From Parahoeflea alexandrii (GTDB lineage Bacteria; Pseudomonadota; Alphaproteobacteria; Rhizobiales; Rhizobiaceae): 64,000 bases of DNA. The stretch spans positions 62,001-126,000 of the forward strand of contig NZ_JAAAML010000001.1 in NCBI RefSeq assembly GCF_024105735.1. Direction: 5' to 3'. The notes under the pieces are model-generated. The model had not been told where the DNA came from. It saw nothing but the letters and a program-made list of their open reading frames with translations, and ran no database searches. Shown in pieces: positions 5,905 to 23,393 of the stretch. Within the stretch, counting starts at the first letter, position 1; every line of letters starts with the position of its first letter. The translations under genes and the position numbers were made by a program.

Positions 5905-8403
5905 ATGACAGTCTCGCTCAGGGGCGTGCCGGTTTCCGGGAATCGCAAAACTTCACACTCGCAGATCTCCGACATGCTCAGCGCCACGGTGGCAGCAGCC
6001 TGCTTCGTGGCCGTGGGAACACATCCGGGACTCGCTCAGGACGGTGATGCGATCGTTCTTCCGACGGTCGAAGTGGAAACGACGCAGCAACAGGACCCCG
6101 CTGCTGCGGCAGCGGCTGCAGACCAGCAATCGGCGGCCGCAAGCCAGCGCGCAGCGCAACGGGCTGCGGCCGCAAGGGCCCAGCGCCAGGCTGAAGCCGC
6201 GGCCGCTCGCGCAGCGGCGCTCGAGGAAGCCAACCAGCGCGCGGAAGCCGAAGCCAGGGCTGCTGCCGAAGCGGCGGCAAAGGCCAAGGAAATCGCACGC
6301 GGCAACCCCTATGCCGATCCGGATGCCCCTTTCAAGAGCGACCGGCTTGCCAATTCCCGTCTGCCAGGGGCCATCGCCGACACGCCGCGCACCGTCACCG
6401 CGATCGGCAAGGAAGTGCTGGAGGCCACAGGCATGACCTCGGTCCGTGAGATCGCACGCACCACCCCGGGCATCTCGCTGGGTTTCGGCGAGGGCGGCAA
6501 CTCCTACGGCGACAACATCTATATTCGTGGCTTCAAGGCCAACAACGACCTTTATGTCGACGGGGTGCGCGATTCCGGGATCAGCGTCCATGAAACCTTC
6601 AACACTGAACAGATCGAGGTGATCAAGGGGCCGGCAGGGACGATTGGCGGACGCGGCACCACCGGCGGCGCTCTCGACATCGTCAGCAAGAAGGCCAAGG
6701 ACGTGTCGTTCTTCGAGGCTTCCACAACCGTGACCAGTGCGAAGACGAAGCGCGCAACGGTCGATTACAACCATGCCTTCAACGAACAGGTTCAGCTTCG
6801 CCTCAACGGGCTGGTGCAGGATGGCAAGGTCGCCGGGCGTGACAATGTCAATGATGACCGCCGCGGCCTCGCCGCTGCCGTGACCATCAAGCCGATCGAT
6901 CTGTTCACGATCGAGGCGGACATTGCGCACACGGTGATCAAGCAGACGCCGGACTGGGGTGTTCCCTACCTGTCAAACAATGGCGGGCCGGTGACCGAGT
7001 ACGGCGTTGACCGTTCGACCTTCTACGGCGTGGTCGGCCGCGACTACCAGGACGTGACCCAGACTGTCGGAACCATCAGGACGATCCTCGAATTCTCCGA
7101 CAGCGCGAAACTGACCAACACCGCGCGCTACTCCCGCTCGATCAATGATTATGTACTGACAGCTCCGAGCAGCCTGATCACCAACAACTCGACCGACATC
7201 AACGACTGGCAGGTGTCTCTGAGCTTCAAGAGCCGCTACCAGGAGACCGATGTATTCTCCGATGTTCTGGAACTGACCGGCGAAACCTCGCTGGGCGGGC
7301 TCTCGCACACCTACGTGGCGGGTCTGAGCTACAGCGACGAGAAGGTGAACACCTACTCCTACCAGAACCTGCAGAGCGAAGATTACCGGCCTCCGGCAGG
7401 GCAGCGCGGCTGCACGGTCAGCGCGGTCAATCCTGATCCGATCGCCCAGGGCTGCTGGTCGGGCGAAGCGCCGGTTCGTGGAACCGCCGCCACCACGACA
7501 CGGGTGCGCTCGACCTCACTCTATGCCCTCGACACCGTCGAGCTCAACGACCACTGGCTGGTCAATGGCGGCGTTCGCGTCGATTTTTACGACAACAAAC
7601 GCAGTTCCGGCACCACCGACCTTGAGCGCAAGGACACCTTGTTCAACTGGAATGCCGGCGTGACCTACAAGCCGTGGGAGCACACGAGCTTTTACGCGGC
7701 GATTGCGAGTTCATCGAACCCGTCCGGACAGGAAATTGCTGCCGGCGGCAGTTTCTACGGCGGTCTTGATGATGGCGGCGTGTTGCTGGCTCCGGAACGC
7801 AACATGTCCTACGAGGCAGGCGTCAAGTACGAGTACAATGACGATCTGCTGCTGACGGCCGCGGTGTTCCAGACGGTGAAATCCAGCGCACGCGAGGATT
7901 ATGATCCTGACGGTCGTGGCGGACCTGCGCCGACCCAGTACCTGGATACCCTCAAATACAGCATGACCGGCGTGGAGCTTGGCGTGTCGGGCAACCTGAC
8001 CGACCGGATCAGCCTGTTCGGTGGGGCCGTCCTGATGGACAGCAAGATCCTGGAAAGCAAGACGACTGCGGATATTGGCAAGGATATTGCCAATATCGCG
8101 CATCATCAGTTCAGCCTTCTGGGTACCTATGCGTACAATGAGAAGCTGACCCTGGGCGCGCGCGTGACCTATGCCGGCGGGCGCAAGCTCGGCAGCGTGG
8201 CGGCCAACGGCAACACGCTGCCGGACTATACCACGCTTGATCTGCTGGCGACCTACAAGTTCTCTGAAAACGCCGAGCTGCAGTTAAACGTCACCAATGT
8301 GGCGGACACCACCTACTATGACTCCGGTTACCGTTCCGGTTCGCCCTTCACCTATGTGGCGCCTGGCCGCGAGTTCTCGTTCAACCTGAAAGCCAAGTTC
8401 TAG
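5905..8403 (+). CDS. TonB-dependent siderophore receptor (Fiu-like) with an Ala-rich N-terminal insert
   Basis: An 832-residue outer-membrane receptor for iron-siderophore uptake, probably catecholate type. The signal sequence ends near residue 45 (HPGLAQ), followed by a TonB-box-like DAIVLPTVEV (48-57). Residues about 65-132 form a strikingly Ala/Gln/Arg/Glu-rich, probably helical segment absent from standard receptors. The plug domain then begins (about 145; LPGAIADTPRTVTAIGKEVL, IYIRGFKANNDLYVDGVRD, IEVIKGPAGTIGGRGTTGG). The 22-strand barrel ends in the expected aromatic terminal strand (GREFSFNLKAKF). The ATG at 5905 is chosen for its ribosome-binding site and signal peptide. It is followed by piuC, exbB, exbD and tonB, a complete energised uptake unit. 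The predicted class rests on Fiu-like plug motifs and the piuC neighbour. Confidence 0.93.
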   Translation: MTVSLRGVPVSGNRKTSHSQISDMLSATVAAACFVAVGTHPGLAQDGDAIVLPTVEVETTQQQDPAAAAAAADQQSAAASQRAAQRAAAARAQRQAEAAAARAAALEEANQRAEAEARAAAEAAAKAKEIARGNPYADPDAPFKSDRLANSRLPGAIADTPRTVTAIGKEVLEATGMTSVREIARTTPGISLGFGEGGNSYGDNIYIRGFKANNDLYVDGVRDSGISVHETFNTEQIEVIKGPAGTIGGRGTTGGALDIVSKKAKDVSFFEASTTVTSAKTKRATVDYNHAFNEQVQLRLNGLVQDGKVAGRDNVNDDRRGLAAAVTIKPIDLFTIEADIAHTVIKQTPDWGVPYLSNNGGPVTEYGVDRSTFYGVVGRDYQDVTQTVGTIRTILEFSDSAKLTNTARYSRSINDYVLTAPSSLITNNSTDINDWQVSLSFKSRYQETDVFSDVLELTGETSLGGLSHTYVAGLSYSDEKVNTYSYQNLQSEDYRPPAGQRGCTVSAVNPDPIAQGCWSGEAPVRGTAATTTRVRSTSLYALDTVELNDHWLVNGGVRVDFYDNKRSSGTTDLERKDTLFNWNAGVTYKPWEHTSFYAAIASSSNPSGQEIAAGGSFYGGLDDGGVLLAPERNMSYEAGVKYEYNDDLLLTAAVFQTVKSSAREDYDPDGRGGPAPTQYLDTLKYSMTGVELGVSGNLTDRISLFGGAVLMDSKILESKTTADIGKDIANIAHHQFSLLGTYAYNEKLTLGARVTYAGGRKLGSVAANGNTLPDYTTLDLLATYKFSENAELQLNVTNVADTTYYDSGYRSGSPFTYVAPGREFSFNLKAKF

Positions 8404-8419
8404 GGCTTGCTGAAAAACC

Positions 8420-8450
8420 AGCGTTCCGGGCGGTCATCGTCCGGAACGCT
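8420..8450 (+). other. Hairpin between the receptor and piuC genes
   Basis: AGCGTTCCGG (8420-8429) and CCGGAACGCT (8441-8450) form a perfect 10-bp stem with an 11-nt loop, 17 nt after the receptor stop and 17 nt before the piuC start. There is no T-run after it, so it more likely modulates readthrough or mRNA decay than fully terminates. Confidence 0.55.
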
Positions 8451-8467
8451 CATGATGGGATAGCCAG

Positions 8468-9151
8468 ATGCTGATCACAATTCCCGATCTCCTGAGCAAG
8501 GATGAAGTGCGTCATTTCCGGGAGGTGCTCGACAAGTCCGAATGGGAAGCCGGTTCCAAGACCGCCGGAGTGCAATCGGAAAGCGTCAAGCGAAACCAGC
8601 AGATGCCGGTCGGAAGCGATGCTGCGCTCAAGCTCGGGCAGTACCTGCTGCAGAAACTGTCCGCCAATCCGGTCTTTCTGTCCGCGGCGCTGCCGCTCAG
8701 AATCCTGCCGCCGATGTTCAACCGCTACGAGACCGACGAAACTTTCGGTGTGCATGTCGACAATGCCATCCGGCTCAATCACCTGACGCAGGAACGTCTG
8801 AGAACCGATCTTTCGATGACGGTGTTCCTCAGCGAACCGGATGAGTATGACGGCGGCGAACTCATCGTTGAAGATCATTACGGCGCCCAGGAGGTCAAGC
8901 TCGAAGCCGGGCACATGGTGCTCTATCCCTCGACCAGCCTTCACCAGGTGGTGCCGGTGACCCGCGGAGCGCGTGTTGCGTCCTTCTTCTGGCTGCAAAG
9001 CATGATCCGGTCGGATGCGCACCGCACCATGCTGTTCGATCTCGACCAGACCATACAATCGCTCGCCGTGCGCCTGGGTACGGGGGACAGCGAAGTGGTT
9101 CGGCTGACCGGGATCTATCACAACCTCATCCGTACCTGGGCAGAGACTTGA
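8468..9151 (+). CDS. piuC: PiuC/YbiX-type Fe(II)/2-oxoglutarate-dependent dioxygenase
   Basis: A 227-residue PKHD-type hydroxylase that usually accompanies catecholate siderophore receptors of the Fiu/PiuA group. The facial triad is visible: His and Asp in [10 protein letters not shown], the distal His in [15 protein letters not shown], and the 2-oxoglutarate-binding Arg in the same segment. The N-terminal sequence [20 protein letters not shown] and the length match the family. It is predicted to act in the cytosol or periplasmic face on an imported siderophore or related compound; the natural substrate is not established. It sits directly after the receptor gene, and its stop overlaps the in-frame upstream TTG of exbB by 2 nt; the preferred exbB ATG is 3 nt further. 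Confidence 0.94.
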
Positions 9152-12817: not shown

Positions 12818-12865
12818 GCAGTTTGGCAGTTTGGCAGTTTGGCAGTTTGGCAGTTTGACAGTTTG
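12818..12865. repeat. Tandem 8-bp repeat (GCAGTTTG x6)
   Basis: Six head-to-tail copies of GCAGTTTG, the sixth starting with A, in the gap between the hemP promoter and the 3' end of the LysR gene. A seventh copy begins (ACAG) and breaks off. This is a simple-sequence repeat of the kind that varies in copy number by slipped-strand pairing. Confidence 0.9.
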
Positions 12866-12929
12866 ACAGCCCCCTCTTGCTCGCACTGGTGACCTTCATC
12901 CTTTATGGACGGGCCGCGGGCTTGATCGC

Positions 12930-13889
12930 TCAGTCGTAGATGCGTTGTTCCATAGGTGTCCGCGCAATCAGGTCGATCAGTCCGGCCAGCATGGCGGCCT
13001 CTGCGCGGTTTGGCTTTGCATGGGGGTTCCAGACCACATGCACATCGATGGCGGGCGGAGACTCGTAGGGCGGCAAACGCCAAAGCCTGCCCCGCTCGAC
13101 ATCCTCGCGCACCACATGCAGCGGCAGTGGGCCAATGCCGAGCCCGGCGATGATCATGCGGCGTACCTCCTCGAGATTGGGCGAGGTGCCAACGATGCGC
13201 GCATCAAGCTGTGCCTCGGCCCGCATCTCGGCTACCGGACGCAGCGCGTCGCCCATCTGGTCGGTGACGAAACTGACCGAGGAGTGACCGGCGAGATCGG
13301 CCATCGTCACGGCCTCGCGCCCGTAAAGCGGATGGGCGGGGCCGCAAAAGAGCCCGAAATACTCCCTGAACAGGCGCCGGTATTCGAGTTGCGGGCTGCG
13401 CTCCATCACAAGGCAGATGGCAAAGGAAGCGCGGCGGGCGGCAACGGCACTGAGCGCGCTGCGGCTTGCCATGGCTTCAATGGACAGCGTCGCGCGGGGG
13501 TGGTCGGTGTGAAACCTGTTCAGAGCGGCGTCGAGCAACGGGCTGACCACATGACTAGCCATGACAATGCGGACATGGCCGCTGACTTCATCCTCTACAT
13601 CCCGGATGACCGTGCCCAGACGGAGGATGGCACCCTGAATGTCGATCGCCTCATCATAGAGCAATTGCCCGGCGGCCGTGAGTTCGAACCGGCCCGGCTT
13701 GCGGTTGATCAATCGCTTGCCAAGCCGTTCTTCCAGCCGCTTGAGGGCACTTGAGACTGTGGGCTGCTTCAGGCTGAGGCGTTCTGCGGCTTCGGTGACC
13801 GAGCGGGAATCGGCCAGCACCAGGAATGTGCGAAGCAGATTCCAGTCGAGTTCACGGGCGAGACGTTCGGGCGGTGTGAGGCTGCTCAT
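12930..13889 (-). CDS. LysR-family transcriptional regulator
   Basis: A 319-residue LysR protein. The helix-turn-helix is at about residues 14-73 (LDWNLLRTFLVLADSRSVTE, then LKQPTVSSALKRLEERLG), and the ligand domain starts around residue 103 (GHVRIVMASHVVSPLLDAAL). It is divergent from the importer/aminotransferase/BKACE operon and 107 nt away, the standard layout for a LysR activator of the facing operon. An inverted repeat lies in that gap. Some relatives with the same opening (ELDWNLLRTFLV) regulate amino-acid catabolic genes; the effector here is unknown. Confidence 0.92.
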   Translation of the reverse strand: MSSLTPPERLARELDWNLLRTFLVLADSRSVTEAAERLSLKQPTVSSALKRLEERLGKRLINRKPGRFELTAAGQLLYDEAIDIQGAILRLGTVIRDVEDEVSGHVRIVMASHVVSPLLDAALNRFHTDHPRATLSIEAMASRSALSAVAARRASFAICLVMERSPQLEYRRLFREYFGLFCGPAHPLYGREAVTMADLAGHSSVSFVTDQMGDALRPVAEMRAEAQLDARIVGTSPNLEEVRRMIIAGLGIGPLPLHVVREDVERGRLWRLPPYESPPAIDVHVVWNPHAKPNRAEAAMLAGLIDLIARTPMEQRIYD

Positions 13890-13895
13890 TTCATT

Positions 13896-13925
13896 ATTGA
13901 TATCATCTATGCAGGCAATATCAAT
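13896..13925. promoter_or_regulatory. Putative LysR operator (ATTGATAT-N14-ATATCAAT)
   Basis: Perfect 8-bp arms at 13896-13903 and 13918-13925, with the T-N11-A element typical of LysR sites inside. A second palindrome TTGATCAA follows at 13933-13940, giving two candidate half-site clusters between the divergent starts (13889 and 13997). Assignment to the adjacent LysR protein is inference. Confidence 0.55.
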
Positions 13926-13996
13926 TATCTATTTGATCAATGTAGTTGAAGCGAACATCATGGTTCCAACGAAAAACGCCGGGGAGCGTTGGGAAC

Positions 13997-14863
13997 ATGA
14001 GCATCGAACAACGTGAAGCGCGGCAGCCATGGATTCTGCTGACGCCTGCACTGACAGCAATCGTCCTGCTGCTGATCGTTCCGCTCATGTTCATCATCGT
14101 CTATTCGTTCTGGCTCAAGAGCGCCGCCGGTGCCGACACACCGGGTTTTTTCCTTGACAACTGGCAGGAAGCGCTGACCGACCCGTTTTACCGGGACATC
14201 CTGCTCAACACCTTGAAGATCGCCGCAGTGACCACGGTGGCCTGCGCTTTGCTCGGCTACCCGGCCGCCTACTTCATCGCCCGTTCGAAGGGCAACCGGC
14301 TGGTGCTGCTGGTGCTCCTGATGCTGCCATTCTGGATCAGCTACATCATCCGCACGATGAGCTGGATCAATATTCTTGGCGTTTCAGGAGCGCTCAATTC
14401 GGCGATGATCTGGATCGGGGTCATCGATGAGCCGATCCAGATGCTGTACAACGAGACCACCGTGATCCTCGGTCTTGTGCATTTTCTGCTGCCGTTCATG
14501 GTTCTCAACATCTTTGTCAGTCTCGAGGGTATCGACACCAATCTTGAGGACGCCGCCAATTCGCTCGGGGCGACGCGCTGGCAGGGTTTCCTGCAAGTGA
14601 CGCTGCCGCTGTCGCTGCCTGGACTGGCGGCGGGCGGACTGCTCTGCTTCGTGCTTGCCGCCGGCACGTACATCACGCCGGTCATTCTCGGCGGGCCGCG
14701 CGATGCGATGTTTGCCAATCTCGTCTACGAGGCGATTATCAGGCAGCTCAACTGGCCTCTCGGATCGGCCCTGTCGCTGATGCTTCTGGTTGTCCTTGGC
14801 GTTCTGGTGCTGATCTACAACCGCTATCTCGGCATGGCACAACTGGCGAAGGGGCTGGGCTGA
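13997..14863 (+). CDS. ABC transporter permease, PotB type
   Basis: A 288-residue inner-membrane permease with about six membrane helices, starting WILLTPALTAIVLLLIVPLM. The cytoplasmic EAA loop that contacts the ATPase reads NLEDAANSLGATRWQGFLQV. It is the first of the four importer genes (permease, permease, binding protein, ATPase), a PotB-PotC-PotD-PotA order. The ATG at 13997 is preferred over in-frame upstream starts because it has GGGA just before it and matches family N-termini. Its stop overlaps the next permease start by 1 nt (TGATG). Confidence 0.93.
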   Translation: MSIEQREARQPWILLTPALTAIVLLLIVPLMFIIVYSFWLKSAAGADTPGFFLDNWQEALTDPFYRDILLNTLKIAAVTTVACALLGYPAAYFIARSKGNRLVLLVLLMLPFWISYIIRTMSWINILGVSGALNSAMIWIGVIDEPIQMLYNETTVILGLVHFLLPFMVLNIFVSLEGIDTNLEDAANSLGATRWQGFLQVTLPLSLPGLAAGGLLCFVLAAGTYITPVILGGPRDAMFANLVYEAIIRQLNWPLGSALSLMLLVVLGVLVLIYNRYLGMAQLAKGLG

Positions 14864-15648
14864 TGGGTTGGCGTCTGATCCGCATCTACACAATCCTGGT
14901 CTATATGTTCATGTTCCTGCCGATTGCGGTGGTGGTGCTGTTGTCATTCAACGCCAACCAGTTCGGCAGCTTCCCGATGACGGGGCTGTCGACCCACTGG
15001 TTCGAGGTGTTGTGGGAAAATGACGCCATCATGCGGGCCTTCCGGACCTCGATCGTGCTTGGCCTGATGACCGCGGTGATTTCCACCGTCCTCGGTGTGC
15101 TCGCCAGCCTGGCGCTGGTCCGCTACAAGGTCCCGGGCCGCAACCTGATCACCACAATGCTGATCGCGCCGATCCTTGTACCAGAGGTGGTACTTGCGGT
15201 GGCCCTGCTTTTGTTCCTGAATTTTCTCGACATCGGCAAGAGCTTCACGCTTCTGCTTCTGGGGCACGTGATCTTCACGCTGCCTTTCGTCATTCTGGTG
15301 GTCCAGGCCCGTCTGGTCAGCATCAAGCGCGATGTGGAAGAGGCGGCGCTGAGCCTCGGAGCTTCGCCGCGGCAAACCTTCTTCGCGATCACGCTTCCTC
15401 TGCTGATGCCTGCGGTGGCCGCAGGCGGCCTTTTCGCCTTCACCATCAGCTTCGACGACATTACCGGAACGTTGTTCTGGAAGCCGGGCGGGATTGAAAC
15501 CGTTCCGACGCAGATCTTTTCGATGCTGCGCAATTCGATCTCTCCGGAGATCAACGCTCTTGGCACGGTCATGATCGTGCTGACGGTCGGGCTGCCGCTG
15601 ATCGGCGCGGCGATCGCCCGGACACTTGCAACAAGAAGCGGTGGGTAA
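14863..15648 (+). CDS. ABC transporter permease, PotC type
   Basis: A 261-residue partner permease with six predicted helices (first: IYTILVYMFMFLPIAVVVLL) and the EAA loop VEEAALSLGASPRQTFFAIT. It forms the membrane channel with the upstream PotB-type subunit and is translationally coupled to it. The family, with PotB, imports polyamines and related cationic or zwitterionic compounds; specificity is set by the binding protein that follows. Confidence 0.93.
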   Translation: MGWRLIRIYTILVYMFMFLPIAVVVLLSFNANQFGSFPMTGLSTHWFEVLWENDAIMRAFRTSIVLGLMTAVISTVLGVLASLALVRYKVPGRNLITTMLIAPILVPEVVLAVALLLFLNFLDIGKSFTLLLLGHVIFTLPFVILVVQARLVSIKRDVEEAALSLGASPRQTFFAITLPLLMPAVAAGGLFAFTISFDDITGTLFWKPGGIETVPTQIFSMLRNSISPEINALGTVMIVLTVGLPLIGAAIARTLATRSGG

Positions 15649-15685
15649 ACCGCCAAGAAAACCTGAACCAGAGATGGAGAACAAG

Positions 15686-16831
15686 ATGGACGATACAAAA
15701 CGCTATGAACGACTGCGCGAGCGGTTCCAGAACGGTGATATCAGCCGCCGCAATTTCTTTGGCCTCCTCGGCGCCGCGGGCGCTGCCTACGGTCTGCAGA
15801 TGCCGTTTGCCAGGCAGGCGTTCGCGCAGAGCGACGTGTCCCAGGTCCGCTTTGACGGCTGGGGCGGCGTTGTCTCGGAAGCGTTCCGCAAATTTGCTTT
15901 CGATCCCTACACCGAGAAGACCGGCATCACCGTGGTTGACGGCACCTTCCCCGGCGGCGACGAGTATCTCGCACTCGTGCGCGCCAGCCAGCCCGGCGAA
16001 TACAACATCGCCCACCTTTCCGGTGTGTTCGATTATGCCCGCTACGCGAGTTTCGATCTGACCAGCGAACTCAATGTTGCCAATATTCCGAACATGGCAA
16101 ATGTCATGCCGGCACTGATGGATGCCTTCAAGTCGATCACGCCCGACAGCCTGAGTGCGGCGCCATACGATTATGGCACAACCGGCCTCGCATATAACCG
16201 CAAGTTCATCTTCGACGAGGAAATGAAGGAGAAGGGCGCCAAGATTCTCATCGACGAGAAGTACAAGGGCAAGATCGGCGGCTGGGGCGATTGGCGCACC
16301 CGGATGTGGTACGCAGCATTGCAGACCGGACAGGATCCGAACAACATTCAGGACACGGAAGCTGCCTGGGAAGCCGTGCGCAAGCACCGCGATCTGGCGC
16401 TCAAATACTGGGCCTCCGGGGCCGAACTGATGAGCCTGCTTGCCGAGGAAGAAATCCACGTTACCGAGGGCTGGTCAGGCCGGATCTTCGCGCTGCAGGA
16501 GCAGGGCCACGATATCGGTTACTACGATCCGCCGAACGGCTTTGGCTGGCAGGAGTGCCTGTTCGTTCTCCGCGGCAGCCCGATGTCGGCTTGCGAAGAA
16601 CTGCTCAACTTCATGCTCGACAAGGAGACCTCGATCGCGGTGGCCGAAGGTCAGAATTATCCGCCCGCGCTCGACCCGACCAAGGTCGACCTCGGCGACA
16701 AGATTCCGACACTACCCGCCTTCGATCCGACCGGCACCCTGTCGGGCCTCACCTTCGCCAATCCGGCTTACTGGAACGGCAACGAGGCAGAGTGGTCGAA
16801 GGAATTCGGCCGCGTCCAGCGCGGATACTAA
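15686..16831 (+). CDS. Periplasmic substrate-binding protein, PotD family, Tat-type signal
   Basis: A 381-residue solute-binding protein. A short basic N-terminus leads to a twin-arginine signal (SRRNFFGLLGAAGAA) and a probable cleavage site at RQAFAQ. The mature protein opens VSQVRFDGWGGVVSEAFRKF, typical of spermidine/putrescine-class proteins. The start is taken at the ATG at 15686, which has GGAGA 5-9 nt upstream; an ATG at 15674 is in frame and possible. It is third in the operon, and a strong hairpin separates it from the ATPase gene. The ligand is unknown; the enzymes downstream suggest a diamino acid or its acetylated form. Confidence 0.92.
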   Translation: MDDTKRYERLRERFQNGDISRRNFFGLLGAAGAAYGLQMPFARQAFAQSDVSQVRFDGWGGVVSEAFRKFAFDPYTEKTGITVVDGTFPGGDEYLALVRASQPGEYNIAHLSGVFDYARYASFDLTSELNVANIPNMANVMPALMDAFKSITPDSLSAAPYDYGTTGLAYNRKFIFDEEMKEKGAKILIDEKYKGKIGGWGDWRTRMWYAALQTGQDPNNIQDTEAAWEAVRKHRDLALKYWASGAELMSLLAEEEIHVTEGWSGRIFALQEQGHDIGYYDPPNGFGWQECLFVLRGSPMSACEELLNFMLDKETSIAVAEGQNYPPALDPTKVDLGDKIPTLPAFDPTGTLSGLTFANPAYWNGNEAEWSKEFGRVQRGY

Positions 16832-16838
16832 GCCAGCA

Positions 16839-16867
16839 ACCGGTCCCGCCGTCGTGGCGGGGCCGGT
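16839..16867 (+). other. Hairpin between binding-protein and ATPase genes
   Basis: ACCGGTCCCGCC (16839-16850) pairs with GGCGGGGCCGGT (16856-16867) over 12 bp with one U-G wobble and a 5-nt loop, starting 7 nt after the binding-protein stop. The downstream tract is C-rich, not T-rich. Probably a 3' stabiliser or partial terminator that sets binding protein above ATPase levels. Confidence 0.6.
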
Positions 16868-16896
16868 CCCCCCTGCAAACCCGGAGGCATGATGTC

Positions 16897-17985
16897 GTGA
16901 GCGCCGTATCCCTGAGCAATATCGTCAAGCGCTTTGGCGACTATACAGCCGTCCACCAGATGTCACTCGACATCGAAGAGGGCAGCTTCGTCACGCTGCT
17001 TGGTCCCTCGGGCTGCGGCAAGACAACAACCTTGCGAATGATCGCCGGCCTACTAGACCCGAGCGAAGGCGAAATCGCGATCAAGGGCAAGCGAGTCAAT
17101 GACGTGCCGATCCACAAGCGCAATCTCGGTCTGGTGTTTCAGAACTATGCGCTGTTTCCACACAAGACCGTTGCCGACAACGTGGCCTTCGGCCTCAACT
17201 ACCGCAATGTCGGCAAGGAGGAAGCCAGGCGGAAGGTGGCGGAAGCCCTGGAACTGGTCCAACTGCCCGATCTCGGCGCGCGCTATCCAAAGGAACTCTC
17301 CGGCGGTCAGCAGCAGCGCATTGCACTGGCACGCGCGATCGTCATCGAGCCGGACGTGCTGCTGCTGGACGAGCCGCTCTCGGCACTGGACGCCAATCTT
17401 CGCGAGGACATGCGCGTCGAACTCAAGCGGATCCAGCAAAGCATCGGGGTGACCACGGTCTTCGTGACCCACGATCAGACAGAGGCGCTGGCGATGTCGG
17501 ACCAGATAATTGTCATGTCGGAGGGACGGGTCGAGCAGATCGGGGCGCCCGAAGAGGTCTACAATACCCCGGCAACAGAGTTTGTGGCCCAGTTTCTCGG
17601 AGCGTCCAACCTGCTTTCAGCCAAGTGTACGGCAGTTGAAGGCGGGGAGATCGAGTTGGATCTTCCGAGCTTCCCCCGCATTGTGATCCCCGGGGAACGC
17701 GCCCCTGGGGTTGCCGGAACGGGCCCGGTCCGGCTCGTCATCCGTGCCGAGAAACTGCATCTGCACCCTGCCGGCTCGACAGCCGAGGGCATGCTGAACG
17801 TTGACGCAATTGTCGAGAATGTCGATTATCAGGGCCAGTCGGCGCGCTACTTTCTGCGGGTCGGCGATCATCAGATGCAGGCGATCAACATGATCGAAGA
17901 TCACCCGTTCGCGGCCGGCGCGAAGGTGGCCTTGCGGTTTCGTGCGAAAGACTGTGCTGCCTTGCCGGTGGAGACCAATCCGTGA
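16897..17985 (+). CDS. ABC transporter ATP-binding protein, PotA type
   Basis: A 362-residue ATPase with Walker A GPSGCGKTTTLRM, Q-loop VFQNYALFPHKT, signature LSGGQQQRIALARAI, Walker B LLLDEPLSALDAN and switch His VFVTHDQ. A C-terminal TOBE domain starts around residue 240 (AQFLGASNLLSAKCT). The start is a GTG at 16897 with GGAGG 9 nt upstream; the ATGs at 16889 and 16892 are out of frame. The stop overlaps the GTG start of the aminotransferase gene by 4 nt, tying transport to metabolism in one transcript. Confidence 0.93.
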   Translation: MSAVSLSNIVKRFGDYTAVHQMSLDIEEGSFVTLLGPSGCGKTTTLRMIAGLLDPSEGEIAIKGKRVNDVPIHKRNLGLVFQNYALFPHKTVADNVAFGLNYRNVGKEEARRKVAEALELVQLPDLGARYPKELSGGQQQRIALARAIVIEPDVLLLDEPLSALDANLREDMRVELKRIQQSIGVTTVFVTHDQTEALAMSDQIIVMSEGRVEQIGAPEEVYNTPATEFVAQFLGASNLLSAKCTAVEGGEIELDLPSFPRIVIPGERAPGVAGTGPVRLVIRAEKLHLHPAGSTAEGMLNVDAIVENVDYQGQSARYFLRVGDHQMQAINMIEDHPFAAGAKVALRFRAKDCAALPVETNP

Positions 17986-19328
17986 AATCAGAAAGCAACC
18001 TGTTTTACCAGAGCCGTTCCCGACGGCCGGTGCTGGCCGAAGCGCGTGGCATTTACATGTGGGATGTCGACGGCAAACGCTATCTCGACGGCTCGTCCGG
18101 CGCCATGGTCAGCAATATCGGTCATTCCAATCCGCGTGTCATCGACGCGATGCGGCGGCAGATGGAGAAGTCGACCTTCGGTTACCGGCTGCATTTCGAG
18201 ACCGAACCAAGCGAGCGGCTTGCGGCCAAGGTCGCTTCGCTGTCGCCTGAGGGCATGGAAAAGGTCTTCTTCGTCTCCGGTGGATCGGAAGCCGTTGAGA
18301 GCGCCATCAAGCTGGCAAGGCAATATGCCGTGACGGTGGGCCAGGGATCGCGCTGGAAAGTGATCTCGCGGTTTCCCAGCTATCATGGCTCGACGCTGGG
18401 CGCGCTGGCGCTGACAGGATATGCGCCGCTGTCGGACCCATTCGCGCCGATGATGCAGGCAATGCCGAAGATCCCGGCTCCGCGCGCCTATCTTGACGGG
18501 ATTGCGATGGATGATCCGGCGACCGGCCAGCATTATGCGGCCATGCTGGAGGCCTGCATCCTTGAAGAGGGTCCCGAGACCGTCCTCGCCTTTATCCAGG
18601 AGCCGATCGGAGGTGCCTCGACCGGTGCGCTGGTGCCGCCGGCCGGGTACATGCAGGCGGTGCGCGAGATATGCGACCGGTACGGCATCTTGCTGATCCA
18701 TGATGAAGTCATGTCCGGCGGCGGCCGGACCGGCAAGTTCATGGGTGGCGAGCATTTCGGGGTTGCTCCGGACATCATCGCTATTTCCAAGGGGTTCGGT
18801 GCCGGCTATGCGCCGCTTGGCGCCATGATTGCCAGCGACCGGCTGATCAACCCGGTGCTCGATGCCGGCGGGTTCCTGCACGGTCATACCTATGCCGGAA
18901 ACCCGCTCGCCTGTGCTGCCGGACTGGCGGTGCTCGAGGAAATTGAAACCGACGATCTCATGGGCAATGCAGCACGGGTGGGTGCGGTGCTCAAGTCGCG
19001 GCTGCAAAACCTGATGCAGCGTTACTCCTTCATCGGGGATGTGCGCGGCGAAGGGCTGCTGCTGGCCTTCGAGCTGGTGTCCGACCGCCAGACCATGCAG
19101 CCCCTGCCAAAAGCGCTCAATGCCTATTCCGAGCTTGTTGAACTGGCCTATGCCGAAGGGCTGATCATCTATTCACGGCGGACGCGCGGTGGCGTCGATG
19201 GCGATCATTTTCTGGTCTGTCCGCCGATGATCACCTCGGTGGACCAGGTCGACGAGATCATCGACATGCTGACTTCTGCACTCGACAAGTTTTCCGCCAA
19301 AGCGGGGCTTGCCGCCGAGATGGCCTGA
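17982..19328 (+). CDS. Class III aminotransferase (omega/beta-amino acid type)
   Basis: A 448-residue PLP enzyme of the class III group, which uses substrates with a distal or beta amino group. Landmarks are GAMVSNIGHSNPRVIDAMRR, the PLP phosphate loop FVSGGSEAVESAIKLARQY, YHGSTLGALALTG, the Asp in LLIHDEVMSGGGRTGKFMGG and the Schiff-base lysine in AISKGFGAGYAPLGAMI. The start is a GTG overlapping the ATPase stop. It is followed 11 nt later by a beta-keto acid cleavage enzyme, so the natural reading is transamination of a beta-amino acid to the beta-keto acid that the next enzyme splits. The exact substrate is an inference. Confidence 0.9.
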   Translation: MKSESNLFYQSRSRRPVLAEARGIYMWDVDGKRYLDGSSGAMVSNIGHSNPRVIDAMRRQMEKSTFGYRLHFETEPSERLAAKVASLSPEGMEKVFFVSGGSEAVESAIKLARQYAVTVGQGSRWKVISRFPSYHGSTLGALALTGYAPLSDPFAPMMQAMPKIPAPRAYLDGIAMDDPATGQHYAAMLEACILEEGPETVLAFIQEPIGGASTGALVPPAGYMQAVREICDRYGILLIHDEVMSGGGRTGKFMGGEHFGVAPDIIAISKGFGAGYAPLGAMIASDRLINPVLDAGGFLHGHTYAGNPLACAAGLAVLEEIETDDLMGNAARVGAVLKSRLQNLMQRYSFIGDVRGEGLLLAFELVSDRQTMQPLPKALNAYSELVELAYAEGLIIYSRRTRGGVDGDHFLVCPPMITSVDQVDEIIDMLTSALDKFSAKAGLAAEMA

Positions 19329-19339
19329 CGGGAGACAGC

Positions 19340-20266
19340 ATGTCGAAGATCATCATATCCTGCGCCGTCACCGGCTCGATTCATACACCCTCGATGTCAC
19401 CCTATCTGCCAGTGACAGCAGAGGCGATCGCCGAACAGGCGATCGGCGCGGCAAAAGCTGGGGCGGCGATACTGCACCTGCATGCGCGCGATCCCAGCAA
19501 TGGCCGCCCGTCGGCTAGCGTCGAACACTACATGGGGTTTTTGCCAACCATCAAGACTGGGACCGATGCGGTGGTGAACCTGACGACTGGCGGCAGTGCG
19601 GTGATGACGCTTGAGCAACGCCTTGCCGGGCCATTGGCGGCGGAGCCCGAGATGTGTTCTCTCAATATGGGGACGATGAACTTCGCGCTCTATCCGATGC
19701 TCGGCAAGCGCACCGAATGGCTGCATGACTGGGAGGAGCCGTTCCTGCGGGACTCCGACGACCTGGTCTTCAAGAACACACCGAGGGATATCGCAAGCGT
19801 GCTGCGGCTTCTGGGGCAGGATCGCGGCGCCCGGTTCGAGTTCGAGTGCTACGATCTGGGCCATCTGCAGATGCTGCACCATTTCGTCGAGCGCGGCATG
19901 ATCAAGGCGCCTATCTTCATCCAGTTCGTCATGGGCGTGCTCGGCGGCGTCAGCGCCGAACCGGAGCACCTGGCCCATCTCAAGCAGACCGCGGACAATC
20001 TGTTCGGTGACAGCTACATGTTCTCGGTTCTTGCGGCCGGCCGCCAGCAGATGGCGATGGCCAGGCTCGGAGCGTCGATGGGTGGTCACGTCCGTGTCGG
20101 ATTGGAAGACAATCTCTATATCGCACGAGGCAGGCTGGCCCAGTCCAATGCCGAGCAGGTGGAGATGGTGCGTGAAATCGTTGAAGGCATCGGCAGGGAA
20201 GTGGCAACGCCCGATGAAGCCCGTGCCATGCTCGAGTTGAAAGGCCGGGACAAGGTTGGGTTTTGA
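19340..20266 (+). CDS. Beta-keto acid cleavage enzyme (BKACE, formerly DUF849)
   Basis: A 308-residue enzyme of the BKACE/3-keto-5-aminohexanoate cleavage family. It uses acetyl-CoA to split a beta-keto acid into acetoacetate and a shortened acyl-CoA. The family opening SCAVTGSIHTPSMSPYLPVT, the zinc His pair in ILHLHARDP, NLTTGGSAVM, SLNMGTMNFAL, and the C-terminal zinc site GGHVRVGLEDN are all present, so the catalytic core is intact. The family covers many substrates and this protein's pocket cannot be assigned by eye. Context (aminotransferase before; acetyltransferase and deacetylase after) suggests an amino- or acetamido-substituted beta-keto acid. Confidence 0.93.
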   Translation: MSKIIISCAVTGSIHTPSMSPYLPVTAEAIAEQAIGAAKAGAAILHLHARDPSNGRPSASVEHYMGFLPTIKTGTDAVVNLTTGGSAVMTLEQRLAGPLAAEPEMCSLNMGTMNFALYPMLGKRTEWLHDWEEPFLRDSDDLVFKNTPRDIASVLRLLGQDRGARFEFECYDLGHLQMLHHFVERGMIKAPIFIQFVMGVLGGVSAEPEHLAHLKQTADNLFGDSYMFSVLAAGRQQMAMARLGASMGGHVRVGLEDNLYIARGRLAQSNAEQVEMVREIVEGIGREVATPDEARAMLELKGRDKVGF

Positions 20267-20268
20267 GC

Positions 20269-20754
20269 ATGGATGACATCATCATCAGGCGGGCGATTGC
20301 TTCGGATGCGGTGGACCTGAACCGCGCGCTTGGCCAATTGTCTGCCGACATGGGTGACCAGCACCGGGCCGGTGATGGCGACATCGCACGTTTTTGCTTT
20401 GGGCCTGCGCCCGTCTTCCACGCGCTGCTGGCCGTGGCTCAGGACGGTACCGTTGTCGGGGCTGTGGCCTATTCACCGTTTTTCTCCACCGTCTATGGAG
20501 GCGTCGGCGTTTACGTTTCGGATCTCTGGGTGGACGCACAAACCCGCGGCAAAAGGCTCGGGCAGCGATTGCTGGCAGCGGTCCGCGCCGAAGGCATCAG
20601 GATGTGGGATGCGCAATTGATGCGGCTGAATGTCTATCACGACAATCCGAAGGCTTTGGCCTTCTATGAACGCATCGGCTTCGTCCCCGTTTCCGACACG
20701 CAGTATCTGACGCTGTCCGGCGAAGCACTCGAATCCCTGGGAGAGCAGGCATGA
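20269..20754 (+). CDS. GNAT-family N-acetyltransferase
   Basis: A 161-residue acetyltransferase with the acetyl-CoA loop QTRGKRLGQRLLAAVR (motif A, Q/RxxGxG/A) and the C-terminal motif B segment RLNVYHDNPKALAFYERIGF. The central VYVSDLWVDA strand resembles diamine/polyamine acetyltransferases. It would acetylate a primary amine of the imported compound or an intermediate. A TTG two codons upstream is in frame, but the ATG at 20269 is preferred. It sits between BKACE and a deacetylase of the acetylpolyamine class, overlapping the latter by 4 nt, which strongly suggests a protect-then-deprotect scheme for the amine. Confidence 0.88.
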   Translation: MDDIIIRRAIASDAVDLNRALGQLSADMGDQHRAGDGDIARFCFGPAPVFHALLAVAQDGTVVGAVAYSPFFSTVYGGVGVYVSDLWVDAQTRGKRLGQRLLAAVRAEGIRMWDAQLMRLNVYHDNPKALAFYERIGFVPVSDTQYLTLSGEALESLGEQA

Positions 20755-21773
20755 AGGCGGTATTTGACGAGCGTCAACGGGCGCATGATCCGAAACACTT
20801 CATGGCCAATGGCAGGCTTTCGGCCAATCCGGAACAGCCGCAGCGTATCGAGGAGTTGAGCCGTGGCGCTCGTGCTGCAGGCTGTGACCTCATTGCGCCA
20901 ACAGATCATGGTCTCGGCCCGGTCGCTGAAATCCATTCGCCTGAATACCTGACCTTTCTCGAGACCATTCACGCCCGCTGGATCCGGACCGAGGGCGCTT
21001 CCGACGAGGTGATCCCCAACATCCATCCCGATCGCCGGACTGTTAGCTATCCCAAGTCCGCCACCGGACAGTCCGGCTTTCACCAGGCCGACACATCCTG
21101 CCCGATTGCGGCAGGCACCTGGCAGTCTGCCTACTGGTCGGCGCAGTCGGCGCTGACTGCGACTGATATCGTATTGGCTGGAGAGAGCGCGGCCTATGCG
21201 CTGTGCCGTCCTCCCGGTCACCATGCGTACGGAGATCTCGCCGGCGGGTTCTGTTTTCTCAACAATTCGGCGATTGCGGCGCAGGCCCTTTTGCGCGCCG
21301 GGCGTCGTCCGGCGATCCTTGATGTCGATGTGCATCACGGCAATGGGACGCAGGGCATCTTCTATCATCGCCGCGATGTGCTGACCGTCTCGATCCATGC
21401 CGATCCGGCACGGTTCTACCCGTTCTTCTGGGGGCATGCGCAGGAGCGCGGCGAGGGAGAGGGAATGGGGTACAATCTCAATCTGCCGCTGCCACGCGGC
21501 ACCGGCGATGCCGACTATCTCGCAACGCTCTACCCGGCGCTGTCACGGATACGCTCGTTCGGGGCAGACGTGCTGGTCGTGGCGCTTGGTCTTGATGCAC
21601 ACGAAAACGATCCGTTCCACGGCTTCAAGGTGACCACTCCGGGCTTTGCAAAGATCGCCGGGGCGATTGCAGGGATGGACCTGCCAACGGTGATCGTGCA
21701 GGAAGGCGGTTATCTGTCTTCCGATCTGGGCGACAATCTGACCAGCTTTCTCAAAGGGTATGAAGCAGGATGA
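20751..21773 (+). CDS. Acetylpolyamine amidohydrolase / histone-deacetylase-family enzyme
   Basis: A 340-residue zinc hydrolase of the arginase-deacetylase fold. The active-site histidines (RPPGHHAYGD), zinc ligands Asp and His (LDVDVHHGNGTQGIFY) and Asp (LGLDAHENDPFHG), and the catalytic Tyr (EGGYLSSDLGDN) are all present. The opening HFMANGRLSANPEQPQR matches bacterial acetylpolyamine amidohydrolases. Expected reaction: removal of acetate from an N-acetylated amine in the cytosol. Coupled by ATGA to both the acetyltransferase before it and the FAD oxidase after it. In this operon a substrate such as 4-acetamidobutyrate or an acetylated diamine is the most reasonable guess. Confidence 0.92.
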   Translation: MKAVFDERQRAHDPKHFMANGRLSANPEQPQRIEELSRGARAAGCDLIAPTDHGLGPVAEIHSPEYLTFLETIHARWIRTEGASDEVIPNIHPDRRTVSYPKSATGQSGFHQADTSCPIAAGTWQSAYWSAQSALTATDIVLAGESAAYALCRPPGHHAYGDLAGGFCFLNNSAIAAQALLRAGRRPAILDVDVHHGNGTQGIFYHRRDVLTVSIHADPARFYPFFWGHAQERGEGEGMGYNLNLPLPRGTGDADYLATLYPALSRIRSFGADVLVVALGLDAHENDPFHGFKVTTPGFAKIAGAIAGMDLPTVIVQEGGYLSSDLGDNLTSFLKGYEAG

Positions 21774-22888
21774 GCGCAGGTTCCGACATTCTGGTGATTG
21801 GCGGCGGTATTGCCGGCATCAGCGCGGCTGCACGGCTGGCGCCCGATGCCAGCGTCACCGTGCTCGAAACCGAGCCGATGATCGGGCACCATTCCTCCGG
21901 ACGCTCGGCTGCGATCTTCATTCGCAATTACGGCAATGCCACGTTGCGGGCGCTCAACGCCGCATCGTCGCCGTTCCTGGCAGATCCCCAAGGTGTATGT
22001 GACACAAGCCTGCTGTCTCCCCGCGGTGAATTGCTGTTGGCGACCGAAGCGGATCTTTCCAAATTTGATGACTATCTTGATGGCAGCGATGGGCTTGAAC
22101 GGCTCTCACCGGCCCAGGCGCTCGAACTGGTGCCGATCCTGCGGGAAGACGCAATCGCTGCAGCGGCGATTGAATGGGACGCCCAGGACATTGACGTCGA
22201 TCGGATGCTGCAGGGATTTGCCCGCAGACTCCGTGCGCATGGGGGCCGGATCGTCACGGGTGCGTCCGTGCAGTCGATTTCCCGTCAGGAAAGTGGCTGG
22301 ACGGTTGTAACACCAGCTGGGAACTTTAGTGCGCCGATCGTGATCAATGCCGCGGGTGGCTGGGCCGATGCGGTTGCCGCCATGGCCGGTGTGCGTACCC
22401 TGGGTCTGGCACCGCTGCGCCGTTCAGCGGTGCTGATTCCTGCGCCGGATGGCCATGACATCACCCGATGGCCGCTGTTCGCCAATGCAGGTGATCAGTG
22501 GTACGCCAAGCCCGAAGCGGGCAAGCTGATGATCTCGCCTGCGGACGAGGATCCGGTCGAGCCACATGATGTCTGGGCGGAAGACATGGTGATTGCCGAG
22601 GGGCTTGATCGTTACGGGCAGGCTGTGACCACGCCGATCACCAGAGTTGAACACAGCTGGGCCGGAATGCGCACATTCGCGCCGGACAGGACGCCGGTGG
22701 TCGGCTTTGCAGCAGATGCTGAGGGGTTCTTCTGGCTTGCGGGTCAGGGCGGCTATGGTATGCAGACGGCGCCGGCGCTGTCGCAACTGGCTGCGGATCT
22801 GTGCCTTGGCAGGCTGTCGCCGCTGGGGCCGTCCGTACTCGATGCACTTAGCCCCGCGCGGGCGGCACTCAATCTTCAAAAGGGATAG
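21770..22888 (+). CDS. FAD-dependent amino-acid/amine oxidoreductase (DAO family)
   Basis: A 372-residue flavoprotein of the D-amino-acid oxidase/glycine oxidase family. The FAD-binding Rossmann motif is at the N-terminus (ILVIGGGIAGISAAARLA), followed by HHSSGRSAAIFIRNYG and a C-terminal FAD contact (FFWLAGQGGYGMQTAPALSQ). It would oxidise a C-N bond to an imine, passing electrons to oxygen or quinone. No membrane segment is evident. It overlaps the deacetylase gene by 4 nt and is followed 4 nt later by a RidA gene, a common pairing because RidA hydrolyses reactive imines. Confidence 0.9.
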   Translation: MSAGSDILVIGGGIAGISAAARLAPDASVTVLETEPMIGHHSSGRSAAIFIRNYGNATLRALNAASSPFLADPQGVCDTSLLSPRGELLLATEADLSKFDDYLDGSDGLERLSPAQALELVPILREDAIAAAAIEWDAQDIDVDRMLQGFARRLRAHGGRIVTGASVQSISRQESGWTVVTPAGNFSAPIVINAAGGWADAVAAMAGVRTLGLAPLRRSAVLIPAPDGHDITRWPLFANAGDQWYAKPEAGKLMISPADEDPVEPHDVWAEDMVIAEGLDRYGQAVTTPITRVEHSWAGMRTFAPDRTPVVGFAADAEGFFWLAGQGGYGMQTAPALSQLAADLCLGRLSPLGPSVLDALSPARAALNLQKG

Positions 22889-22892
22889 AAAA

Positions 22893-23240
22893 ATGAGCGA
22901 TATCAAACGTTTCGAAACCGGCCCGCGCATGAGCCAGGCTGTCGTCCATGGCGGCGTGGCTTACCTGGCCGGTCAGGTCGGCACCGCCGGGGCCAGTGTT
23001 GCCGACCAGACCAAGGACATTCTTGCCAGTATCGACCGGCTGCTGGAATCGGTGGGTTCGGACAAGAGCAAGATCCTGCAGACCACGATCTGGCTGGCCT
23101 CGATGGATGACTTTGCGGAAATGAACGCTGTCTGGGATGCATGGGTTTCTCCGGGCAACGCACCGGCACGTGCAACCGGGGAAGCGAAGCTCGCGACACC
23201 GGACTACAAGGTCGAGATCATCTGCATCGCCGCGGTCTGA
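22893..23240 (+). CDS. RidA/YjgF/YER057c family protein
   Basis: A 115-residue Rid protein with the family core AYLAGQVGTAGASVADQTKD, KILQTTIWLASMDDFAEMNA and the C-terminal APARATGEAKLATPDYKVEI. The catalytic arginine position (PARAT) is kept, so imine hydrolase activity is possible. The reading frame extends far upstream inside the oxidase gene, but homology starts at the ATG at 22893. As the last gene of the operon, before a clear terminator, it probably clears imines made by the preceding FAD enzyme or by PLP chemistry. Confidence 0.91.
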   Translation: MSDIKRFETGPRMSQAVVHGGVAYLAGQVGTAGASVADQTKDILASIDRLLESVGSDKSKILQTTIWLASMDDFAEMNAVWDAWVSPGNAPARATGEAKLATPDYKVEIICIAAV

Positions 23241-23270
23241 GCCAGGTACTCGGGGATCAAATCGTAAAGC

Positions 23271-23303
23271 ACGCCGCGTATCGATTGGGATGCGCGGCGT
23301 TTT
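23271..23303 (+). terminator. Rho-independent terminator after the BKACE operon
   Basis: ACGCCGCG (23271-23278) pairs with CGCGGCGT (23293-23300) and the stem runs into TTTT (23300-23303). It lies 30 nt after the RidA stop. Confidence 0.75.
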
Positions 23304-23393
23304 CATGCTTGGAATTGTGGGCAGAACGGGGAAGTGCTCGCGGCGGCAGGGCGATCTGTGCCATAGTCGGGGTCTTCCCGAGAAAGCGATTCC

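Follow-up and report, generated by a model that had tools for sequence, protein, structure and literature searches.

A conserved alphaproteobacterial operon that may degrade an omega-N-acetylated beta-amino acid

Gene content, conservation and control of the operon

The stretch of DNA under study (the window; 64,000 nucleotides of Parahoeflea alexandrii contig NZ_JAAAML010000001.1, positions 62,001 to 126,000) harbors a compact operon at 13997-23240 on the forward strand, in which open reading frame calls and family searches place ten genes, divergent from a gene for a LysR-family regulator (Table 1). They encode an ATP-binding cassette (ABC) importer of the PotBCDA kind, a class III aminotransferase, a beta-keto acid cleavage enzyme (BKACE), a GNAT N-acetyltransferase, a deacetylase resembling acetylpolyamine amidohydrolases, an FAD enzyme related to DauA and a RidA-type imine deaminase. 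The original prediction, made from the sequence of the window, had named this gene set, and every gene of it is found where it was placed. The tight packing opposite the LysR gene is likewise confirmed, in that neighboring genes from PotA through RidA either overlap by 4 bases or are separated by gaps of 4 or 11 bases.

Relatives were collected by a genome-contig search with an alignment of the deacetylase (A1), and the best 80 of 563 confirmed candidate loci were retained; gene content was counted where at least 3.5 kb upstream of the deacetylase gene (73 loci), at least 7 kb upstream (66 loci) or at least 2.6 kb downstream (64 loci) was available. The hosts include Hoeflea, Roseovarius, Roseibium, Stappia, Sneathiella, Defluviimonas and Rhodovulum, and the top full-length matches (85-91%) come, where a genus is named, from Hoeflea. 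The aminotransferase gene is present in 69 of the 73 loci, and in 68 of them aminotransferase and BKACE genes stand immediately 5′ of the deacetylase gene, which argues that the operon is more than a chance assembly. As exceptions, L094 has the aminotransferase alone, L096 the BKACE alone, and L087, L093 and L114 neither; the operon of L096 looks broken or misassembled, because its BKACE gene is split into two overlapping pieces (8100-9000) and no aminotransferase gene is seen upstream. The co-occurrence of BKACE, GNAT and deacetylase genes, which the original prediction had raised, is borne out by 74 loci in which BKACE and deacetylase genes are adjacent, with the GNAT gene between them in 54 and missing there in 20 (gaps of 449-561 and 37-119 bases, respectively). 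The importer is Pot-type in 56 of 66 loci, amino-acid-type (SBP_bac_3 family) in 9 and neither in 1, and its type switches twice on the tree (65 loci). The FAD gene is found in 41 of 64 loci, together with the RidA gene in 24, and its state changes 8 times on the tree (62 loci). Thus, importer, aminotransferase, BKACE and deacetylase form the core, and GNAT, FAD enzyme and RidA are optional. In L062 (10010-12886), the deacetylase and FAD genes are separated by an inserted gene whose 958-residue product matches Pec_lyase and PMT_2.

The LysR gene occupies the same position in most of the 80 relatives, and the gap between it and the operon contains an operator-like site with inverted ATCAA/TTGAT halves. 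With up to 4 mismatches, this 18-base site occurs in 48 of 64 related LysR-operon gaps, compared with 0.1% of single-base shuffles; its 14-base core, ATTATCTATTTGAT, matches the whole genome once exactly and once with one mismatch, and a control with the pattern written backwards has no match. Downstream of the RidA gene, the region 23235-23320 folds with -31.1 kcal/mol (z -2.40; 3 of 200 shuffles equally good) into a terminator-like hairpin. Immediately 3′ of the LysR gene, 6.5 copies of GCAGTTTG at 97% form a tandem repeat (12818-12869), the sole tandem array detected within the window.

Table 1. Genes and other features at the locus (positions in the window; scores in bits)
Feature	Position	Strand	Family matches and remarks
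LysR-family regulator	12930..13889	-	PF03466 120.7, PF00126 73.8
Operator-like site ATCAATTATCTATTTGAT	13920..13937		LysR-operon gap; conserved in relatives' gaps
PotB-like ABC permease	13997..14863	+	PF00528 27.8; PotB model 214.7 (cut-off 348)
PotC-like ABC permease	14863..15648	+	PF00528 56.1; PotC model 214 (cut-off 326)
Periplasmic binding protein (SBP_bac_8), distantly PotD-like	~15674..16831, start codon uncertain	+	PF13416 79.3; PotD model 30.6 (cut-off 582)
PotA-like ABC ATPase	~16894..17985, start codon uncertain	+	PF00005 131.7, PF08402 48.5; PotA model 353.8 (cut-off 482)
Class III aminotransferase	17982..19328	+	PF00202 336.9; NF005685 464.7, slightly under cut-off 485
BKACE	19340..20266	+	PF05853 353.5; NF053538 491.3 (cut-off 430)
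GNAT N-acetyltransferase	20263..20754	+	PF00583 50
Acetylpolyamine-amidohydrolase-like Zn deacetylase	20751..21773	+	PF00850 238.1; 3men 322.3
DauA-related FAD enzyme, accessory	21770..22888	+	PF01266 189.3; DauA 3nyc 281.4
RidA-type imine deaminase, accessory	22893..23240, ATG at 22893	+	TIGR00004 56.2 (cut-off 106.25)
Terminator-like hairpin	23271..23303	+	12 pairs, then TTTT; 3′ of RidA

Signatures of the core enzymes and of the acetyltransferase

A BKACE requires a beta-keto acid, and such an acid can be made from a beta-amino acid by the aminotransferase conserved alongside it; the aminotransferase is proposed to act on the beta-amino group. The BKACE of the window falls into the same NCBIfam equivalog, NF053538, as BKACE15 of Paracoccus denitrificans (PDB 8RIO, 8RIP, 9HNF; 522.1 bits), and retains the HLH zinc motif and the catalytic residues E171 and R254 (BKACE15 numbering). 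It differs from BKACE15, which has T at position 198 and W at 230, in that operon BKACEs carry F at both: 98 of the 99 operon rows (some genes fetched twice) have F198 and 94 have F230, compared with 3 and 5, respectively, of 39 other rows. The two phenylalanines occur together in 3 of these 39 rows, L192, L219 and L223. L192 is an operon member cut by the contig end, and L219 and L223 are BKACEs without operon neighbors, so that the pair is rejected as an exclusive marker of the operon. Kce (NF052387), the 3-keto-5-aminohexanoate cleavage enzyme of lysine fermentation, belongs to the same superfamily and performs the same type of reaction, but the window BKACE reaches only 246.9 bits on its model (cut-off 382), and the substrate of Kce bears a free amino group and no acetylation. 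The confirmed substrates of BKACE15 are neutral C5-C6 3-keto acids (PMC11961710), which would suit an uncharged acetamido side chain. Its genomic context is interpreted by its authors as aromatic degradation, with a role unknown to them (PMC11961710).

Further BKACE genes were seen in other settings. On contig 9 of G000 (L051, 49703-60185), a paralogue of 60% identity has a TRAP transporter gene nearby and gabT-gabD at a distance of about 7 kb. In L047, L048, L049 and L236 (family f50, genus g54), aminotransferase, BKACE and GNAT genes form a cluster with no deacetylase match there, and L234 (8906-13884) shows another BKACE-GNAT association, in which a GNAT-BKACE pair stands with enolase-superfamily-like, SDR-like and acyl-CoA-ligase-like genes.

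The deacetylase shares its fold family, zinc site and catalytic residues with the acetylpolyamine amidohydrolases of Mycoplana ramosa and Pseudomonas aeruginosa: the zinc ligands and catalytic His and Tyr (H157, H158, D193, H195, D282 and Y321) are invariant in all 81 operon rows. Two residues differ from those of the known enzymes, as do the operon partners, which are not polyamine-catabolic. The M. ramosa enzyme uses E117 for a salt bridge with its polyamine (PMC5454378), and this glutamate is replaced in every operon row (by A in 53 and by S in 28). E223 is replaced by R in 79 of the 81 rows (the exceptions being L096 and L187) compared with none of 15 deacetylases outside the group.

The best solved matches of the GNAT profile are a thialysine acetyltransferase (97.6 bits), a probable N-acetyltransferase and diamine acetyltransferase 2, followed by diamine acetyltransferase 1 and an ornithine N5-acetyltransferase, and a single-sequence search agrees on these families. 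Judged by their names, the closest solved relatives probably transfer the acetyl group to the distal amine of diamines or lysine-like diamino acids, and the presence of such a GNAT and an acetyl-amide hydrolase in one operon suggests that an acetyl group protects this amine and is removed last. An identification of the GNAT as an AblB-type beta-lysine N6-acetyltransferase was rejected, because TIGR03827 is without a match in the genome.

The GNAT does not appear to be indispensable. A quick tree of 72 loci shows 12 changes of its state, of which starred branches force at least 8, and its role as a required step was rejected in view of its absence from its place in more than a quarter of the adjacent BKACE-deacetylase pairs. 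Because the GNAT comes and goes and the deacetylase stays, the substrate may often arrive acetylated. When 16 of the 20 genomes without the GNAT at the locus were searched with a profile, 3 had a strong copy (147-203 bits) anywhere, 3 a copy of 75-87 bits, and 10 a weaker one or none, compared with 190-203 bits in 4 of 4 GNAT-bearing controls. The strong copy in L169 has surroundings without other operon genes; the one in L168 has a second aminotransferase gene and a dimethylformamidase-like gene for neighbors, at a locus with no BKACE or deacetylase match.

A tentative pathway and its competitors

Taken together, these features suggest that the operon is inducible and catabolizes an omega-N-acetylated beta-amino acid, the likeliest candidates being N-epsilon-acetyl-beta-lysine and beta-lysine obtained from outside the cell; we assign this reading a probability of roughly 45%. 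In this scheme, the substrate would be taken up by the ABC importer and, if it were free beta-lysine, the far amine would be acetylated by the optional GNAT. The aminotransferase would then strip off the beta-amino group to form 3-keto-6-acetamidohexanoate, which the BKACE would cleave using acetyl-CoA, yielding acetoacetate and 4-acetamidobutyryl-CoA. Removal of the acetyl group would fall to the deacetylase, either this enzyme or the product of a gene elsewhere would release the CoA, and the resulting 4-aminobutyrate would be consumed via gabT-gabD. We infer the substrate, the inducibility, the order of the steps and every reaction from family membership and gene context, and N-epsilon-acetyl-beta-lysine appears to be the best-fitting substrate. 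The degradation of L-beta-lysine in a soil Pseudomonas, reportedly studied in the Barker laboratory in about 1979-1981, is said to proceed by N6-acetylation, beta-transamination, acetyl-CoA cleavage to acetoacetate and 4-acetamidobutyryl-CoA, and deacetylation to 4-aminobutyrate. Each of these steps has a candidate gene of a fitting family here; the differences are that the present bacteria belong to another class, that acetylation is optional and that the FAD enzyme and RidA are additional.

Elsewhere in the genome, on contig 9, a gabT gene (NF005692, 840.8 bits; cut-off 724) adjoins a gene for succinate-semialdehyde dehydrogenase (TIGR01780, 718.9 bits; cut-off 646.35). The original prediction had also stated that no lysine 2,3-aminomutase is present, and this holds for the whole genome of the window, in which TIGR00238 has no match. 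This enzyme was found in 5 of 15 operon genomes, all of genus g3, on a contig other than that of the operon or 1.3 Mb away from it; as a local source of beta-lysine it was rejected, being missing from the genome of the window and unlinked in g3. The acetylated beta-lysine route of the original prediction thus stands in part. The logic of aminotransferase, BKACE and deacetylase, the relatives of the GNAT, the BKACE subfamily, the deacetylase residues, the importer variants and gabT-gabD speak for it, and the obligatory acetylation step has to be dropped. The idea that each enzyme fills one step was not upheld either, the FAD enzyme and RidA being optional and without an assigned step.

Several observations weigh against this reading. 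L094 holds the aminotransferase and the deacetylase without a BKACE at the locus, and a search of its genome, a metagenome bin, found none at 1e-40 either; in L043 and L045 (genus g3) there is no BKACE beside the aminotransferase, and their genomes (G105 and G229) encode a BKACE of 58-59% identity elsewhere. The loss of E117 is common to all 21 other deacetylase rows and is therefore a trait of the clade, and the change of E223 to R could reflect simple ancestry. A strong GNAT copy lies about 4 kb past the LysR gene in L085 (seen in L170), and in some genomes the acetylation step may be relocated rather than lost, since strong or middling copies occur elsewhere in 3 of 16 genomes each. For AblB, TIGR03827 gave no match in the genome at 0.001, and controls match in 5 of 14, of which 3 are above the cut-off. 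BKACE chemistry yields an acyl-CoA and the operon has no dedicated thioesterase gene, so that the free 4-acetamidobutyrate given as the cleavage product in the original prediction has to be abandoned. Furthermore, the classical biochemistry is reportedly that of a Pseudomonas, and in 398 genomes of the phylum, deacetylases with at least 62% identity to that of the window were confined to its own class; a weaker match occurs in 35 out-of-class genomes, and in the 3 of these whose surroundings of the match were inspected no BKACE was seen. The DauA-like enzyme and the racemase, creatininase and M20 variants hint at portions of the substrate for which the scheme does not account. Finally, BKACE15 also cleaves malonate semialdehyde (PMC11961710), which leaves the chain of the substrate unfixed by the subfamily.

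The alternative that survives best, although it is unlikely, retains the same logic for another substrate, either a shorter or different omega-N-acetylated beta-amino acid (e.g., beta-ornithine) or a peptide or lactam conjugate with a D-amino acid, the other half of which would be processed by extra amidohydrolases, the DauA-like enzyme or a racemase. Dimethylformamidase-like, creatininase-family, M20 plus racemase-fold, and ArgE/DapE-type genes in variant loci are what such a substrate would call for, and the FAD enzyme keeps two arginines that we take to bind a carboxylate. However, creatininase, M20 and racemase clusters occur in 5, 4 and 4 of the 80 loci, respectively, and dimethylformamidase-like genes in 0 (few other recurrent neighbors were scanned), and the FAD gene itself is missing in 23 of 64 loci. 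Compared with DauA, a D-arginine dehydrogenase, the FAD enzyme retains Y53, E87, R222, Y249 and R305 and has I for H48, all of which we take to be active-site positions, and it stands in a different operon context. At a guess, the FAD enzyme and RidA might handle another stereoisomer or an accompanying D-amino acid, and the extra hydrolases point to conjugated or D-configured parts of the substrate in some lineages.

The variant loci are as follows. A dimethylformamidase-like (DMFA2_C) gene lies 5′ of the aminotransferase gene in L041, L042, L046 and L174 (family of the window; genera g3 and g125), as judged by a domain scan in L042, clustering in L041 and L046, and similarity in L174; L042 has, in addition, an amino-acid-type importer. 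A creatininase-family gene is located within amino-acid-type importer genes in L097, L104, L111, L129 and L131 (L104 scanned, the others clustered). The GNAT-less loci L117 (10001-12308), L119 and L121 carry genes for an M20 amidohydrolase and an alanine-racemase-fold protein 3′ of the deacetylase gene, whereas L112, which has a GNAT, carries a racemase-type gene there and an M20-type gene at the opposite end. In L187 (11391-12677), a GNAT-less locus from another family, an ArgE/DapE-type deacylase gene lies between the FAD and RidA genes.

It is rather improbable that the operon serves acetylpolyamines and beta-alanine, with polyamines imported and deacetylated and beta-alanine finished by the aminotransferase and BKACE via malonate semialdehyde to acetoacetate and formyl-CoA. 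Such a route would make use of the activity of BKACE15 on malonate semialdehyde, and the importer and the deacetylase do resemble polyamine-type families; yet all four Pot proteins fall short of their equivalog cut-offs (Table 1), and the best model of the ATPase is PhnT2 (375.4 bits; cut-off 457.7). Aligned at low identity with PotD, the binding protein keeps W229, W255 and mostly D168 and has E for D257 in all 61 rows, which would suit polyamines, whereas T replaces E171 in 60 of the 61, an invariant arginine (R226) adjoining this T. The comparison with PotD rests on the alignment, an AF2 model from 16 sequences having a mean pLDDT of 52.0 and a pTM of 0.49. Polyamine import and deacetylation are also at odds with the 9 of 66 loci whose importer is amino-acid-type instead of Pot-type and with the loss of the polyamine-binding E117 from the deacetylase, and the FAD enzyme is DauA-like rather than a polyamine oxidase.

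Least credible is a protein acetylation switch, in which the GNAT and the deacetylase would control an aminotransferase-BKACE pathway for an ordinary beta-amino acid: AcuA and AcuC control acetyl-CoA synthetase in this manner in Bacillus, and a GNAT and an HDAC-fold enzyme are neighbors in the operon, but the deacetylase is nearest to small-molecule acetylpolyamine enzymes and is retained in 20 loci without an adjacent GNAT, the best relatives of the GNAT are named for small amines, and no acyl-CoA synthetase is encoded among the ten genes.

Relation to known pathways and implications

We know of no gene for the steps of the Barker pathway. Among the matches listed in the open-access literature, a scope outside which the original biochemistry and the 2014 BKACE survey lie, there was no paper linking beta-lysine with BKACE or with an acetylpolyamine-type deacetylase, and no description of this gene set or of a gene for its steps was found. 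The enzyme families of the locus are known ones; for the conserved catabolic operon that they form, this literature showed no description. AblA and AblB synthesize N-epsilon-acetyl-beta-lysine, so that their product is the substrate proposed here; the present genome differs in that neither TIGR03827 nor TIGR00238 matches it. Many of the host genera are marine. N-epsilon-acetyl-beta-lysine is reported to be a compatible solute of methanogens (PMC12776343).

The most far-reaching form of the proposal, which we regard as doubtful, is that Alphaproteobacteria of sea and soil carry a dedicated and widely conserved operon for the uptake and degradation of N-epsilon-acetyl-beta-lysine imported in acetylated form, which would provide genes for an N6-acetyl-beta-lysine transaminase, a 3-keto-6-acetamidohexanoate cleavage enzyme and a 4-acetamidobutyryl-CoA deacetylase. 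Testing the claim should be easy, given the compactness of the operon, its importer and the presence of a single operator-like site. If it is true, genes would be attached to a pathway that was reportedly studied as enzyme activities some 45 years ago, annotations such as "acetylpolyamine deacetylase" and uncharacterized BKACE would become a testable pathway, and these bacteria would be linked to the turnover of an archaeal osmolyte.

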